DNA of 64,000 bases. It comes from Nitrospiraceae bacterium. Lineage in GTDB: Bacteria > Nitrospirota > Thermodesulfovibrionia > UBA6902. Where the stretch lies: assembly GCA_003599275.1 (NCBI GenBank), contig QZJG01000005.1, forward strand, positions 1-64,000, read 5' to 3'. Positions 14,628-53,581 of this stretch are shown here, in pieces. Every line of letters starts with the position of its first letter. Position 1 is the stretch's first letter. Position numbers and translations under genes: made by a program. Below the pieces are notes generated by a model that did not search any database, was not told the origin of the DNA, and saw nothing but the letters and a program-made list of their open reading frames with translations.

Positions 14628-15497
14628 ATGAATGGAAGAAGCGCAGCAACGCTGGCAGTATTGTTCTTTCTCTTATCGCTGGTTTCTTATGCCTCAGCAG
14701 AGAGCATACTCGACAATGTAAAAAAGGAAGGCATCGTGCGCATAGGCACAGCCAATACAAATCCGCCGCTGAACTATCTCGATGAGCAGGGGAACTGGGT
14801 AGGATTTGACGTGGAGATAGGAGATGCCATCGCTCAAAAACTCGGGGTCAAGGTGGAAAGGATCCTCGTCAATGACAAGACAAGAATTGCCTTTCTTGCA
14901 AACGGGAGGGTGGACCTTTCCATATCAAACATCAGCCATACGAGAAGCCGCGAAGAACAGATTGATTATGCAGAGCCGCCTTATTTATGGTCGGGCAAAA
15001 TCTTCTATGCCAGGAAAGGGAAGTTCAAATCGTTTAAAGACCTCGGCGGTAAAAGGATAGCCGTCACCCAGGGGTCCAATGCTTATACCGCAGCGCCGCT
15101 GGAGATTAAAAAACATACGGCCAAGGAGCCGGTCATGGTGGCGTATCAGTCAAACGCAGAATGTTTTCTGGCCCTTAAACAGAACAAGGTGGATGCATAT
15201 TCACAGGACACGCCGATCATAGCGGGGGTCGCCGGGAAGGAAGGAGTGGAGTACGAAGCAGTGGGGCCAATATACAGCGCCGGGCTTTACGGCATTGCCG
15301 TTCCGCCGAATGACAGCAAGTGGAGGGACGCCGTAAGCTTCATTCTTCAGGACTTGATCAAGAACGGCACATACGAGAATATCTACCAGAAATGGTTTGG
15401 GGCCAAAGGTAAATTTCCGCTTCCCATTAACGCCAGACCCCGACTTCCGGAAGATATATTCGGAAAAGAGTACAGCGCCTTTGTCTGGCCTGACTAA
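14628..15497 (+). CDS. Extracellular solute-binding protein family 3 (amino-acid ABC transporter SBP-like), orphan in this window
   Basis: Signal peptide; VRIGTANTNPPLNYLDEQGNWVGFDVEIGDAIAQKLGVKVE; ...KRIAVTQGSNAY. Confidence 0.9.
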   Translation: MNGRSAATLAVLFFLLSLVSYASAESILDNVKKEGIVRIGTANTNPPLNYLDEQGNWVGFDVEIGDAIAQKLGVKVERILVNDKTRIAFLANGRVDLSISNISHTRSREEQIDYAEPPYLWSGKIFYARKGKFKSFKDLGGKRIAVTQGSNAYTAAPLEIKKHTAKEPVMVAYQSNAECFLALKQNKVDAYSQDTPIIAGVAGKEGVEYEAVGPIYSAGLYGIAVPPNDSKWRDAVSFILQDLIKNGTYENIYQKWFGAKGKFPLPINARPRLPEDIFGKEYSAFVWPD

Positions 15498-33933: not shown

Positions 33934-35406
33934 TTATACTTCAACCCTGAACTCTGCTCCGCCGTCTGTATTATTTACTGTCAGCTCGCCGTCCATATTT
34001 TTCTCGATTATCATCTTCGACATGTAAAGCCCTACGCCGGCGCCTTTCTTGTGGTTTTTTGTCGTAAAGTAAGGATCGAATATTCTGTCTATAATATCTT
34101 TCTGTATCCCTCCGCCGTTGTCTTTAACAGTGACCACTGCCTTACCGTTCTCCCTGAATGCCTTTATTCCAATATACGGGCTGCCGGTTTTGCTGTCAAT
34201 TAAAGCTTCTTTTGCATTGTTGAGTATGTTTAAAAGCGCCTGGGTATAATCGTTGCGGTATCCGAAAACCGTTATATCTTCTTTCAGGTCGAGTTCCACC
34301 TTTATACCGTCATTCTCAAAACCTGAATCAATAAAGGACAAAGCCCTCAGAACAATTACATCAAGATTAAATTGCTGTTTCTCCCCATCAGGCTTAAAAA
34401 AACTTCTGAAATCGTCTATGGTGTGTGACATCTTGTAAATTATGTCCATTCCCGTCTTGATGCTGCTGTCAATATATTCCTTATTCAGTTCTCCGGAATC
34501 ATAAGTCTCCTTGATGTCCTGAATTATAAGGCCGACAATGCTTATCGGCTGCCTCCACTGGTCTGCTATTGCACTGACCATTTCACCCATTGCCGCAAAA
34601 CGGCTCTGCTGTATCAGCATATGGTCCTTCATCCGGCTCTTCTCGACCTCCTCAACCACCCTCTGGTCAAGAATGGATTTTGAGACCGTTATATCTTTCA
34701 GGTTTTCGACCATCATATTGAAGGCATGCGCCAGTTTACCGATCTCGTCCTTTGTCTCAATGATCACTTTTTTGTTTAAATCACCCTGGCCGATTTTCTC
34801 GGCTGTCATTGAGAGGTCCACGAGCGGTCTGGTTATGGTCCTGGAAAATATTGCGAACCCGAATATGCCGATCAGCATAATGGAGAAGGTGACCATGATT
34901 ATAAGGAAGATAATGCGGGAGATTGTTTTTGAAATTACATCCATGGAGAAGCCGATCCTGAAGAAGCCCACCTGACCTTTCAGGATCGGCATGGCAATAT
35001 CGTAGATCCCCTGTTCATCGCCGGTGACAAGCAACTGGATTTTATATGCGTCTTCCGGCAAAACTCTGTTGACCCCGATCAAGTCCGTGGGGAAATTCTT
35101 GCCGAATGTATGCGCTAATATCTTGTGTTTATGATCAGTAATGAAAACGTATTCCACGTCCTTTTCCGTGATCTTTATGCCGTCAATAGTCGCCTGGAGA
35201 GAAACAGCGTCTTCAAGTATGATCATGTCGCCGACTTCCCATACAGCGTGTTTGGCAATGGAGATGGCCCGCTCCCGGAGCTCGGCTTCGAACTTCTGTT
35301 TAACGACAATCTGCACCAGCATGATTATCGCCACGGAAAGGAGGAGCGTCAATACGGTATATCCGATCAGAAATTTTGTCTTCAGACTTATAAATTTCAT
35401 TGTCAA
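33934..35406 (-). CDS. Membrane sensor histidine kinase with HAMP domain
   Basis: Two TMs, HAMP (SRTITRPLVDLSMTAEKIGQGDLNKKV), AIADQWRQPISIVGLIIQD, DNGGGIQKDIIDRIFDPYFTTK. Confidence 0.92.
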   Translation of the reverse strand: MTMKFISLKTKFLIGYTVLTLLLSVAIIMLVQIVVKQKFEAELRERAISIAKHAVWEVGDMIILEDAVSLQATIDGIKITEKDVEYVFITDHKHKILAHTFGKNFPTDLIGVNRVLPEDAYKIQLLVTGDEQGIYDIAMPILKGQVGFFRIGFSMDVISKTISRIIFLIIMVTFSIMLIGIFGFAIFSRTITRPLVDLSMTAEKIGQGDLNKKVIIETKDEIGKLAHAFNMMVENLKDITVSKSILDQRVVEEVEKSRMKDHMLIQQSRFAAMGEMVSAIADQWRQPISIVGLIIQDIKETYDSGELNKEYIDSSIKTGMDIIYKMSHTIDDFRSFFKPDGEKQQFNLDVIVLRALSFIDSGFENDGIKVELDLKEDITVFGYRNDYTQALLNILNNAKEALIDSKTGSPYIGIKAFRENGKAVVTVKDNGGGIQKDIIDRIFDPYFTTKNHKKGAGVGLYMSKMIIEKNMDGELTVNNTDGGAEFRVEV

Positions 35407-36344
35407 TGCAGTTTCTGATTTTCTCTAACGCTTGTTATCATATTCCGCGCAGACTCGAAATCGGCATCATCTCCCCGGACAAACCTGTCGATCATCATGC
35501 CCTTTAAAATTTCCCTGCCCTTATTATTGTCGTGCATCCCGATAAGTATTTTTGATATATTCTCCTTCAGCTCCGGTGACAGATTCTTCCTTGCAATAAT
35601 CGGCGGGGATGCAAACGGCCGTGACTTCAGAATGATCTTCGTCTGCGAAGTATATTGGGGGTTTGTTTTATCGAGATAGTCCCATATGAGCCCGTCCACA
35701 GCTGCTCCGTCGACAAAACCCTGGGCAACGGCCGCTATGGATTTATCATGCCTGTTAGTAAAAATGTATTTACTGAAAAAAGTGTCGGGTGTCTCATTCA
35801 TTTGTATGAGCAGATAAGTCGGAAATGTCTTCCCCGTATTGGAAAGAGGGTCTGTAAAAGCAAAGCTCCTGCCTTTTAATTCCGTAAAGTTTTTAATGCC
35901 GCTGTCCTTGTGCACAATTATATATGAATGATATGCGGCCCTGCCGTTGATCTGGGGCATTGCTATCAATTCCGCCCCTGCTTCATCATGGACCGACACA
36001 TAGGCACCGGTGCAGACAAAGGCTATATCCACATTGCCGGTCTTTATCAGGTCGTTTGTCTCCGAATATGTCCTCCGGTCAATTAATTTGATGTGCATAT
36101 CCAGTTTGTCTTCCATGTAATTAAATATGCCTTTATAATATGCAAAGCCCTCCTCGGGAGTAATCATGGCGCCGATGGCCACGCGCAACACTTTGTCCGA
36201 ATGGTTTTCTTTTTCGTTAATGGGAGACCTTTTTTCGATATTGACCTTCTTGGGATTTTCGTTCCCGGTGCATCCGGTCATAAAAAAGGGCAGCAAAAAA
36301 ATCAGCGCCAAACAAAAAAGATATTTTAACTTTTCAGCAAACAT
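35403..36344 (-). CDS. PhnD-like phosphate/phosphonate-type periplasmic binding lipoprotein
   Basis: Lipobox MTGC; VLRVAIGAMITPEEGFAYYKGIFNYMEDKL...TGNVDIAFVCTGAY...GRSFAFTDPLSNTGKTFP. Overlaps the HK gene. Confidence 0.88.
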   Translation of the reverse strand: MFAEKLKYLFCLALIFLLPFFMTGCTGNENPKKVNIEKRSPINEKENHSDKVLRVAIGAMITPEEGFAYYKGIFNYMEDKLDMHIKLIDRRTYSETNDLIKTGNVDIAFVCTGAYVSVHDEAGAELIAMPQINGRAAYHSYIIVHKDSGIKNFTELKGRSFAFTDPLSNTGKTFPTYLLIQMNETPDTFFSKYIFTNRHDKSIAAVAQGFVDGAAVDGLIWDYLDKTNPQYTSQTKIILKSRPFASPPIIARKNLSPELKENISKILIGMHDNNKGREILKGMMIDRFVRGDDADFESARNMITSVRENQKLH

Positions 36345-49791: not shown

Positions 49792-49916
49792 GTCATTGCG
49801 AAGCAATCTCTTTTTATCGCTCGGATAAACTCCGCAATCTCAAAGAAGATTGCCTCGGTCGTATCGACCTCGCAATGACAGGGAATTCAAGCGTTACAGC
49901 TCCATGTCTATTTCAG
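49792..49916. mobile_element. Degenerate MITE-like element, family A copy 3
   Basis: CAATGACAGGGAATTCAAGCGTTACAGCTCCATGTCTATTTCAG matches the reverse complement of the copy 1 left arm (CAATGACAGGTAATTCAAGCGTTTATAGTTCTATGTCTATTTTTCGG). The middle matches copy 2 inverted. Confidence 0.65.
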
Positions 49917-49969
49917 TGTCTTGTAATCAACTACTTGCTTTTAAAACATATGTGACCATATATTAATAC

Positions 49970-50305
49970 ATGGAACAATGGTCGGGCGAATACCCTGCTG
50001 ATATGTCTCCTTTAAACTGGACCGTAATACTGAAGGCCCTCGCCGATAAAAACCGTTTACAGATCATCCACGAGCTCTTAAAGCATGAAGCTACCGTCAA
50101 TGAATTATCAGATGCCCTCAATCTGAAGGTATACAATATGTCCAAACATCTTAAAGTCCTCGAGGCAAGCGGATTGCTTCAGAAAAGGAAAAACGGCAGC
50201 CGAAGAATATACAATATTACAGAGCAGCTCATGTCCCGCCTGTCCGAAGACAGGCAGGTCCTGGATCTGGGTTGCTGCAAATTCATATTCGTTTCGGAGA
50301 AGTAA
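49970..50305 (+). CDS. ArsR-family transcriptional regulator with C-terminal vicinal Cys pair
   Basis: ILKALADKNRLQIIHELLKHEATVNELSDALNLKVYNMSKHLKVLEASGLLQKRKNGSRRIYNI; ...LDLGCCKFIFVSEK. Confidence 0.88.
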   Translation: MEQWSGEYPADMSPLNWTVILKALADKNRLQIIHELLKHEATVNELSDALNLKVYNMSKHLKVLEASGLLQKRKNGSRRIYNITEQLMSRLSEDRQVLDLGCCKFIFVSEK

Positions 50306-50323: not shown

Positions 50324-53300
50324 ATGGCAAGGCATCAAAAACGATACGGAATGCTGGTCAACCTTGACAGGTGCGTAGGATGCTATGCATGTCAGGTGAC
50401 GTGCAAGGCAGAGTATGACATCCCCTTCGGCGCTTTCCGCTGCAAGGTCGAAACATACCGGTCCGGCTGCTATCCGGATATTACAAAAATTTTCATCCCA
50501 AGGTTTTGCAACCACTGCGACAATGCCCCATGCATCGAGGAATGCAAAGAAGACGCCCTCTTCAAGAATGAGGACGGCGTCGTCATTTTAAAAAGTGATA
50601 AATGCGTGGGCTGCCGGATGTGCCGGGACAAATGTCCCTATAAGGCAATCGATATAAGTCCGGTCACAGGGCAGGCGGAGAAATGCGACTTTTGCCATGG
50701 AAGGACAATAAATGGTCTCTTGCCTGTCTGTGTCCAAAGTTGCATGGGGAAGGCGCTTTTGTTCGGCGATATCAATGACCCGAAAAGCGATATCTCCCTT
50801 GAAATGGCAAAATCCGGCCTGAAGATTTTAAATCCCGAATACGGCACTAATCCATCTATTTTTTATGCATACAAGGGAGATGCCGGCAGCACGCCGTTAA
50901 AGGATTATGCACCCGTGGCCGGACGTTCAACGCGCCGCATAAAGGTCAAACACGACGGACAGGAGGGGGTGGCGGGAAAATTAATATATACGTCCGACGT
51001 CATGTGCCCTTCCGAATGCGGCATAGCCGTACTTGTGCAAGACGGCGTCGCAAAAAAAATTTACGGTAATCCCCACACCCTTGTGAATAACGGCGCATTT
51101 TGCGCAAAGGGCGCTGCGGGGCTGCAACTTACCTATTCCCCTCACAGGATCAAGACCCCTCTCATGAGGACAGGAGAAAGAGGGGAAGATAAATGGAAAG
51201 AGATAACATGGGAGGAGGCATCCGACCATATAGCAAAAAAACTGATCGGGATAAAAAACAGATACGGGCCGGAATCGGTATTCCTCGACTGCGGCGATGT
51301 TACGGACAGAGAGGCATACTACAGGCTCTTTCACGCCTTCGGCACGCCGAATACATACAATCACGGAAGCGTGTGCGACACAAACCGCAAATGGGGACAA
51401 TTCATCATGACGGGAGACGAAAGGCCCCTTCCCGATGTCCAGAGACCTCTCCTGACAAGGGACGACAACAATGAGCTTCATCTTCATAACAGGCATGACG
51501 CCAGACTTATTTTAAACATCGGCGTCAACCCCTTTGTGGCGACGAGATTCAATTACATGTCGAAAGGGATAACGGCCGCCAGGCAGGAGAACGGGTGCAT
51601 CTACATTGTCATTGACCCTGCATACACAAATTCAGCCGCTCACGCCGACATATGGCTCCCAATATTGCCGGGGACGGACACCGCGCTTCTCGCGGGGATG
51701 CTTTATTACATTGTTCAGAATGACGCGGAACACAAATATATCGACCATGATTTCATAAAAAATTACACAGCCGGATGGGAGGAATTCAAAGAAGCGTTTT
51801 TCTCACACACGGAAGCAACGGACCCGTCGAACGGCCTGCATTTTTTCACTCTCGAATGGACCGCGGAGAAGACCGGCATTTCAATAGAGAACATCATGAA
51901 GATATCTCACATGTTCGGCGCCACAAAACCGGCGTCGATCGAGATAGGGATGCACGGCACGGCGCACCACACAAACGGCGACGTGGCCTCCATCCTCATG
52001 ACCGCACTGTGCCTTATAACAGGCAACATGGACGTCCCCGGCGGACTTGTATTCACAGATTCGCAAAAACCCAAAAAAGGCGACAGGACAATCGGGAAAG
52101 ATTTTCTTGAGAAAATGGCCGATAGAAATATAAACGGCAGCAGCGTCAACGGCAGACTGACGGAGCTCAACAAGGACCTTTCCGGAGATTATCCCGCTGC
52201 ATGGAAAGGGGTGTTAGCAGACCTGCCTCAAAAAATAAGGGACGGGATAAAGCTTAAACACGGTGCGTTCAAAGATTATTCCTATCCGGTAAAGGCCTTT
52301 ATAACGAGGGCAGGCAATCCGGTAATCACGGCGGGCAGCACCCCCGACTGGATTGATGCATTGACATTGAAAGCCAACCCCCTTTTGCCGGCTTTCAACA
52401 ATGAAGAGGCAGGAGGGCTTTTAAATGAATACCAGCTTGAGCTGATGGTGTTCATCGACACGCACATCACCGAGACCGGGAAGTATGCGGACATAATCCT
52501 TCCGGAAGCGGGCTTTCTCGAAAGGATGGGAACGAGCGATGTCTATACCATGAGTCCCGAAATTGCGATCAGGGACCAGGTCATCAGGCCGCTTTATGCG
52601 TCCAGGACACCTTTTGATATTATGCTGGCCCTTTCCGACGCATTAACAAAAAACGGCGACCCTGATATAAGGACGGAAGATTTCAGGGGAAGGTATGAAA
52701 ACGAAGAGGCCTTCATAAACGAGATATTAGCCGAAGCCCCTGGATTCAGCAATATCGGCGGACCGCTTCCATATCCCGATCTCCCTGAAGGATGTTTGAT
52801 AATCGGGACGCCCGACAATCCATCGGCTGTATGGGGGAAAAAGGTCATAAAGCAGGGCGAAGCCCTTACCGTCGACTGGCTGAGAAGGCATAACGGCGTC
52901 GCGGTCTGGCCTGCAAGTTATTTCAGATACAAAAAATCCGATGGCTCTCCGTCCGGCATATATCCGAAAACAGCTTCAAGAAAATTCGAGTTTAAATTCG
53001 GCCGCCTCGAAGCCCTGAATAAAAAGTCAGGGACGGATTTCCCGTCCACCTTTTACTGGACGGACTGCAAATGGGACCCGAAAAACCCTTTATACAGGGA
53101 CGCGAACAAAGAATACCCTTTTCAGTTGATAACCGGCAGGGTACATCATGCAATGACAATGACTGTGGTATGTCCTTACCTTGCAGAAACAGAGACCGAA
53201 TGCATGCAAAGACTCAACGAAGAATTCAGGTCCGGCGAAACTCATTTTGCCGCAGGCTCGGTCTCGGTCCCGGTTTTCGCAATTAACAAATCCGACGGCG

Positions 53301-53581
53301 AAAAACTCGGCGTCAATACCGGCGACATTGTAATTCTCGAAACCCCGTTGAAGAAACGGGTCAGAGGCAAGGTATATCTTACGGAAGAAATCATGCCGGG
53401 CGTCATTAAAACCGCCTTTGGACCCGGGGGACAAAAAGCGTCGGGGATCGGCTTTATGAATTGCGTTGCCGGATACACCCCGAATATAAATGAATGCTTT
53501 GACCCTGAAAACATTTCCCGTTTCACCGGGATGCCGGGATTCGGGGATGTAATGGTCAGAGTCATCAAAGAGACCCCGTAA
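50324..53581 (+). CDS. Fused four-cluster ferredoxin (PsrB/DmsB-like) and molybdopterin oxidoreductase catalytic subunit (DMSO-reductase superfamily)
   Basis: N-terminus with 16 Cys in 4 clusters (CVGCYACQVTC, CNHCDNAPCIEEC, CVGCRMCRDKC, CDFCHG...CVQSC). Then MCPSECGIAVLVQDGVAKKIYGNP..., HGSVCDTNRKWG, INVGVNPF-like, molydopterin-binding C-terminal domain. Confidence 0.92.
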   Translation: MARHQKRYGMLVNLDRCVGCYACQVTCKAEYDIPFGAFRCKVETYRSGCYPDITKIFIPRFCNHCDNAPCIEECKEDALFKNEDGVVILKSDKCVGCRMCRDKCPYKAIDISPVTGQAEKCDFCHGRTINGLLPVCVQSCMGKALLFGDINDPKSDISLEMAKSGLKILNPEYGTNPSIFYAYKGDAGSTPLKDYAPVAGRSTRRIKVKHDGQEGVAGKLIYTSDVMCPSECGIAVLVQDGVAKKIYGNPHTLVNNGAFCAKGAAGLQLTYSPHRIKTPLMRTGERGEDKWKEITWEEASDHIAKKLIGIKNRYGPESVFLDCGDVTDREAYYRLFHAFGTPNTYNHGSVCDTNRKWGQFIMTGDERPLPDVQRPLLTRDDNNELHLHNRHDARLILNIGVNPFVATRFNYMSKGITAARQENGCIYIVIDPAYTNSAAHADIWLPILPGTDTALLAGMLYYIVQNDAEHKYIDHDFIKNYTAGWEEFKEAFFSHTEATDPSNGLHFFTLEWTAEKTGISIENIMKISHMFGATKPASIEIGMHGTAHHTNGDVASILMTALCLITGNMDVPGGLVFTDSQKPKKGDRTIGKDFLEKMADRNINGSSVNGRLTELNKDLSGDYPAAWKGVLADLPQKIRDGIKLKHGAFKDYSYPVKAFITRAGNPVITAGSTPDWIDALTLKANPLLPAFNNEEAGGLLNEYQLELMVFIDTHITETGKYADIILPEAGFLERMGTSDVYTMSPEIAIRDQVIRPLYASRTPFDIMLALSDALTKNGDPDIRTEDFRGRYENEEAFINEILAEAPGFSNIGGPLPYPDLPEGCLIIGTPDNPSAVWGKKVIKQGEALTVDWLRRHNGVAVWPASYFRYKKSDGSPSGIYPKTASRKFEFKFGRLEALNKKSGTDFPSTFYWTDCKWDPKNPLYRDANKEYPFQLITGRVHHAMTMTVVCPYLAETETECMQRLNEEFRSGETHFAAGSVSVPVFAINKSDGEKLGVNTGDIVILETPLKKRVRGKVYLTEEIMPGVIKTAFGPGGQKASGIGFMNCVAGYTPNINECFDPENISRFTGMPGFGDVMVRVIKETP

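Follow-up and report, generated by a model that had tools for sequence, protein, structure and literature searches.

The window analysed here is a stretch of 64,000 nucleotides, in which an arsR gene lies 18 bp upstream of, and on the same strand as, a gene for a large molybdopterin oxidoreductase. The features that concern us are as follows.

49970..50305, + strand: ArsR/SmtB regulator, 111 aa, with vicinal Cys102-Cys103 at the C-terminus in a conserved LDLGCC motif
50324..53581, + strand: fused ferredoxin-molybdopterin oxidoreductase, ATG start, 1085 aa, an intact open reading frame with orthologues
50324..50878, + strand: PsrB/TtrB-like module, residues 1-185, with 16 Cys for four [4Fe-4S] clusters (Pfam, PDB match)
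50981..53578, + strand: molybdopterin catalytic module, residues 220-1085 (Pfam domains, tree)
50996..51103, + strand: FS0-type cluster motif D225-x2-C228-x3-C232-x27-C260, whose first ligand is Asp, not Cys
51374..51376, + strand: codon of Cys351, the presumed Mo/W ligand, in an HGS[IV]CD motif (alignment invariance)
14628..15497, + strand: substrate-binding protein (SBP) of a polar-amino-acid ABC importer, an orthologue with 66% identity

As the original prediction had it, the ferredoxin module lies ahead of the molybdopterin module in a single 1085-aa chain, which the open reading frame, the Pfam domains and the Cys pattern all bear out. Specifically, Fer4_11 and Fer4_2 cover residues 9-149, Molybdop_Fe4S4 residues 227-272 and Molybdopterin residues 275-772, while Molydop_binding is found at residues 981-1074 with a score slightly below its cut-off. 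The best FeS match of the ferredoxin module in the PDB is Thermus PsrB (2vpw_B, 135.9 bits, residues 6-182), and the best match of the catalytic module is ArrA (6cz7_A, 136-138 bits). Residues 1-190 contain 18 Cys, of which 16 are cluster ligands arranged in four groups (17, 20, 23, 27; 62, 65, 70, 74; 94, 97, 100, 104; and 121, 124, 136, 140), and these are kept across all 39 fused orthologues, except for C17 in one. The molybdopterin domains, the Mo/W ligand residue and the PsrB-like module together place the enzyme in the CISM / DMSO reductase superfamily. A structure predicted for the whole protein from 11 sequences had a mean pLDDT of 35.7, and so offers no active-site model for the explanation that we favour below.

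The catalytic module shows two conserved features. Position 225, the first ligand of its FeS cluster, is occupied by Asp in 38 of the 39 fused sequences and in four of the five sequences of a sister clade described below; the remaining fused and sister sequences have Cys there, as do PsrA and ArrA, which confirms the register of the alignment. Asp is able to ligate a [4Fe-4S] cluster; alternatively, a [3Fe-4S] cluster may form. Cys351 is the same in all 44 sequences aligned and is presumed to be the Mo/W ligand.

Mo/W enzymes of this type normally act outside the cell membrane. The stop-to-stop frame of the enzyme comprises 1091 codons, only six of which (PYFRGI) precede the ATG, so an upstream in-frame start adding a Tat signal is impossible, and the predicted lack of such a signal holds. 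The catalytic subunits (MopB) of the sister clade carry RRxFLK-type Tat signals. Additionally, the ABC permease to which the enzyme is fused in some genera (see below) carries few charges at the N-terminus, whereas its C-terminal tail is strongly positive; by the positive-inside rule, this puts the fused enzyme on the cytoplasmic side. These observations support the cytoplasmic location that had been proposed.

The gene that follows the enzyme is pheA-like (an aromatic amino acid gene), and nrfD is absent nearby, in agreement with the reported lack of an NrfD-like anchor; at the loci read, no TorD gene was found beside the fused enzyme gene. In many genomes of the family, pheA, hisC, aroF, tyrA and aroA come after the enzyme. 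This gene order, together with the occurrence of acetylene hydratase and the transhydroxylase small subunit among the PDB matches, would fit chemistry on an organic acid or an aromatic compound (a dehydrogenation, a hydration or a hydroxyl transfer), possibly tied to the downstream aromatic genes; acetylene hydratase and transhydroxylase are precedents for hydration and hydroxyl transfer. We consider such chemistry highly improbable, however, with the aromatic operon not at the enzyme locus in many genomes of family f1 and at the loci of the two other families, and acetylene hydratase (a partial sequence) outside the enzyme's group in the tree. The operon was also rejected as a functional partner, its link being one of position only and missing from many relatives, and ribosomal-protein and frr genes downstream at some loci were set aside as housekeeping neighbours. 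Several further genes were observed near the enzyme. At five loci (L012, L014, L015, L062 and L066) a glycoside-hydrolase-like gene of ~435 aa lies on the opposite strand between arsR and the enzyme, and at two loci of family f5 (L041, L044) the enzyme gene has fdhD in its vicinity, the gene for the protein that sulfurates the formate dehydrogenase cofactor. The window also holds a PhnD-like binding protein and histidine kinase pair at 33934-36344 on the minus strand, with no regulator or oxidoreductase adjacent; it broadly resembles the sensor sets located beside the importer and the sister enzyme.

The fused enzyme occurs in 44 of 61 related Nitrospirota (Thermodesulfovibrionia) genomes, and 48 of 61 have a match when the distant sister clade is counted; some of the genomes contain fragments only. 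Full-length orthologues share 63-77% identity over the window's family and two further families of the order, which excludes chance, and the fused state was found at all 39 loci read. The enzyme was not found in two families of the same order (G037, G039). Among 296 genomes sampled more widely across the phylum, all matches with E up to 1e-60 came from the same class. A scan of ~85,000 species genomes with short peptide patterns, which detects close relatives only and may miss distant ones elsewhere, found the enzyme only in Nitrospirota; the sister MopB gave no match to plasmids at E 1e-30. A literature search found neither a permease-molybdoenzyme fusion nor a comparable single-chain enzyme. 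Two genomes present other arrangements. One has a separate 197-aa FeS frame (G016:C95:7630-8190), 58% identical to the ferredoxin module, and a partial MopB on another contig (C62), which may be a split or duplicated form. In the other (L051 of G045), the FeS subunit of a sister-like enzyme bears a Tat signal, while its MopB is in fragments; the importer is present in this genome and the fused enzyme was not found.

In a maximum-likelihood tree of 34 catalytic domains, including 10 fused enzymes and five of the second (sister) clade, these two sets form one group with support 100/100. This group is sister to the one with PhsA, Thermus PsrA and ArrA, and falls inside none of these three; the rows for PsrA, ArrA and acetylene hydratase are partial, and ArxA, SrrA and TtrA are not in the tree. 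The possibility raised beforehand, that the catalytic domain nests within a characterised fused family, is not borne out, as it falls in no characterised family of the tree; to our knowledge, its branch has no characterised members. The family models agree with this placement. Although ArrA is the top PDB match of the catalytic module, the enzyme reaches only 142 bits with the ArrA model NF041714 (cut-off 1600) and lies on another branch, outside the 100/100 group formed by the ArrA sequences. It scores 232 bits with the PhsA model (cut-off 694) and 96 bits with the TtrA model NF011567 (cut-off 1750). Both modules of PsrAB/PhsAB are recognisable in the enzyme, but in those systems the catalytic subunit is separate, exported and associated with an NrfD-type or cytochrome b anchor; the enzyme has neither the Tat signal nor the membrane anchor subunit of PhsA/PsrA, and PhsA and Thermus PsrA group together apart from it (the PsrA sequence being partial). 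ActB of alternative complex III resembles the enzyme in that MopB-like and ferredoxin modules share one chain, but the order is opposite, its ferredoxin being C-terminal (residues 795-911 of 6f0k_B). ArrA-like proteins of relatives, with ~990-1164 bits to NF041714, are separate from the enzyme and on their own branch; no sampled Nitrospirota genome passes the 1600 cut-off, the best reaching 1164 bits. The window's genome has a separate ArrA-like protein (G000:C9:2849-4756), which scores 433 bits with this model in a frame of 1026 aa.

Enzymes of the second clade are encoded by three genes, one for a FeS subunit (221 aa), one for a MopB with a Tat signal (~950 aa) and one for a chaperone like TorD; NrfD is lacking. 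Most of these loci have a PhnD-like sensor protein as a neighbour, together with a histidine kinase and an NtrC-type regulator. In gene layout these clusters match the published MOLY cluster, a proposed marker of sulfur disproportionation with separate MolyA, MolyB and the TorD/DmsD chaperone MolyC (PMC12998232). The fused enzyme shares with the MOLY-like clusters read here the catalytic clade (100/100, 45-49% identity), mostly the Asp first ligand, a PsrB-like partner, the lack of NrfD and a related sensor-kinase-regulator set. It differs from them in being one chain that is linked to an importer and has neither Tat signal nor TorD, and thus lacks the separate subunits, TorD/DmsD chaperone and export that define a MOLY cluster.

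The importer in question belongs to the polar-amino-acid (PAAT) family. Alignment of its SBP with AncQR shows that the Arg and Asp by which members of this family bind the alpha-carboxyl and alpha-amino groups of an amino acid are both in place; the permease carries the TIGR01726 3-TM signature (86.6 bits, cut-off 42.2), and the ATPase is of the GlnQ type. As in GlnHPQ and the cystine and Lys/Arg/Orn systems, an ATPase, two permeases and an SBP of the same family are present, but all importer scores fall below the cut-offs of the named PAAT transporters. In the window's genome, the two permeases and the ATPase lie on another contig (G000:C16, ~27.7-30.1 kb), and in most genomes of family f1 the importer is located elsewhere than the enzyme. 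At four loci (L040, L042, L044 and L045; four genomes, two families), ATPase, permease, permease and enzyme follow one another in this order on one strand. In three genomes of three genera (G023, G030 and G035), one reading frame runs without a stop from the second permease into the N-terminus of the enzyme and encodes chains of 1359-1363 aa; G021 has the same permease-enzyme order, but with one in-frame TAA. In genus g11, the importer ATPase gene lies directly downstream of the enzyme gene (gaps 77-133 bp), and these genomes hold an SBP-permease cluster without an ATPase; the g11 ATPase is 73-77% identical to the importer ATPases elsewhere versus 38-54% to unrelated GlnQ-type ATPases. Moreover, a permease orthologue is found in 39 of 44 enzyme carriers versus 1 of 17 non-carriers, a comparison that is not corrected for kinship, all carriers belonging to one order. 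The five carriers without a clear permease orthologue comprise two that match the second permease only (G016, G025) and three with no match (G004, G007, G026). Together, neighbourhood, fusion and co-occurrence make the proposed coupling of enzyme and importer well supported at the level of sequence, and we know of no other PAAT-family importer that is fused to or clustered with a molybdoenzyme.

The permease might instead be a mere membrane anchor or regulatory platform that replaces NrfD, or the two might only share regulation, the importer's cargo not being the substrate of the enzyme. This explanation is favoured by the usual placement of CISM enzymes on a membrane anchor, which is not encoded here, and by the location of the importer elsewhere in most f1 genomes. 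We nevertheless think it unlikely, since an anchor role leaves unexplained both why in genus g11 an ATPase gene adjoins that of the enzyme and the ATPase-permease-permease-enzyme order of the two other families. In several relatives, a PhnD-like sensor, a kinase and an NtrC-type regulator precede the importer cluster, and their importer-side and sister-side versions are 45-56% (sensor), 40-48% (kinase) and up to 60% (regulator) identical; we infer that one signal could govern import in certain lineages and, in others, a route through the periplasm.

The ArsR protein scores 73 bits with NCBIfam HTH_metalloreg (cut-off 55). Its pairing with the enzyme, which had been pointed out beforehand, is real within one family, where arsR lies upstream on the same strand at all 24 f1 loci that hold both genes (gaps -20 bp to 5.8 kb), but at the loci of the two remaining families ArsR is missing; the defining partner is therefore not ArsR but the ABC importer. 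AfArsR uses Cys95-Cys96-Cys102, and three C-terminal Cys are needed for As(III), whereas SpArsR, without the third Cys, responds to methylarsenite (PMC11868830). The ArsR family of the present loci has the vicinal Cys pair only, and so lacks the three-Cys set of AfArsR; the pair may correspond to that of SpArsR. Such a pair fits a putative sensor of soft metalloids or persulfides. A palindromic operator was sought upstream of arsR, and none is conserved. In the same region (window 49880-49970 and orthologues), a recurrent CTTGATTTT is followed after about 17 bases by ATATATTA, which in many relatives sits a few bases before the arsR ATG; a position so near the start suggests a leaderless arsR transcript in the family.

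An arsenic system, that is, the cytoplasmic reduction or oxidation of a perhaps methylated arsenical with ArsR sensing the trivalent product, would accord with the Cys pair of the regulator when set beside the methylarsenite-responsive SpArsR (PMC11868830), with the distant relation of the catalytic domain to ArrA, and with ArsS (TIGR04167, above cut-off) close to the importer cluster in five genomes (G009, G015, G019, G027 and G032). This reading appears decidedly unlikely, as ArsS is missing from the window's genome and from most carriers yet present in non-carriers, the ArrA model yields 142 of 1600 bits, no conserved ars operon genes lie beside the enzyme, and the SBP appears made for an amino acid. 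As a general partner ArsS was rejected for its patchy distribution and its presence in non-carriers. ArsS-like radical SAM proteins (TIGR04167) are unusually expanded in genus g2, with 5 copies in G010 and 8 in G030.

For the substrate, arsenic, selenium or sulfur oxyanions had been suggested. All three elements are candidates, but the scores with the ArrA, PhsA and TtrA models lie far below their cut-offs, and no family model names a substrate for the enzyme. Rhodanese is found in 35 of 44 enzyme carriers and in no non-carriers, often between arsR and the enzyme gene; it was not found in the window's own genome. DsrA is present in 55 of 61 genomes, including that of the window, and non-carriers have it too. 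The carrier-only rhodanese, DsrA and the MOLY-like sister favour a sulfur substrate, and the reacting group would most likely be oxidised sulfur, with lower odds for selenium or arsenic. A sulfur compound resembling an amino acid would unite the lines of evidence, which support no single compound.

Our preferred reading, for which we see the balance as even, is a cytoplasmic oxidoreductase that is fed by a dedicated importer and acts on an imported, probably amino-acid-like solute. It builds on what is read from the sequence, namely the domain order, the missing Tat signal, the cofactor ligands, the sister relation and the importer neighbourhood, fusion and co-occurrence, and from these we infer the following course. 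The importer would carry a small, probably amino-acid-like solute into the cell, where the molybdopterin module would reduce it (oxidation being possible), with electrons running along the four N-terminal clusters and the one in the catalytic module from or to a partner that is presumably a soluble cytoplasmic carrier. ArsR would keep the gene pair repressed, with release once its two vicinal Cys bind a soft metalloid or a sulfane compound. As to origin, we suggest more tentatively that a periplasmic CISM enzyme may have moved to the cytoplasm, with its subunits fused and joined to an amino-acid-type ABC importer, and that in some genera it may be borne on the cytoplasmic end of the permease, so placed that the pore would deliver the substrate to the active site.

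For respiratory molybdoenzymes of this group, contact with the substrate usually takes place outside the membrane, or else the enzyme is a small reductase of the cytoplasm that no dedicated importer serves. Here, the fused enzyme is near-universal and single-copy in an order of Nitrospirota that is uncultured and bears dsrA, and it is physically joined to an importer; this would be a new mode of placing such an enzyme in the cell. The binding protein of the importer offers a direct handle on the substrate, so that the question is testable with one purified protein. An enzyme joined to an importer in this way points to an unrecognised step of energy metabolism or assimilation in subsurface sulfur (or metalloid) cycling.
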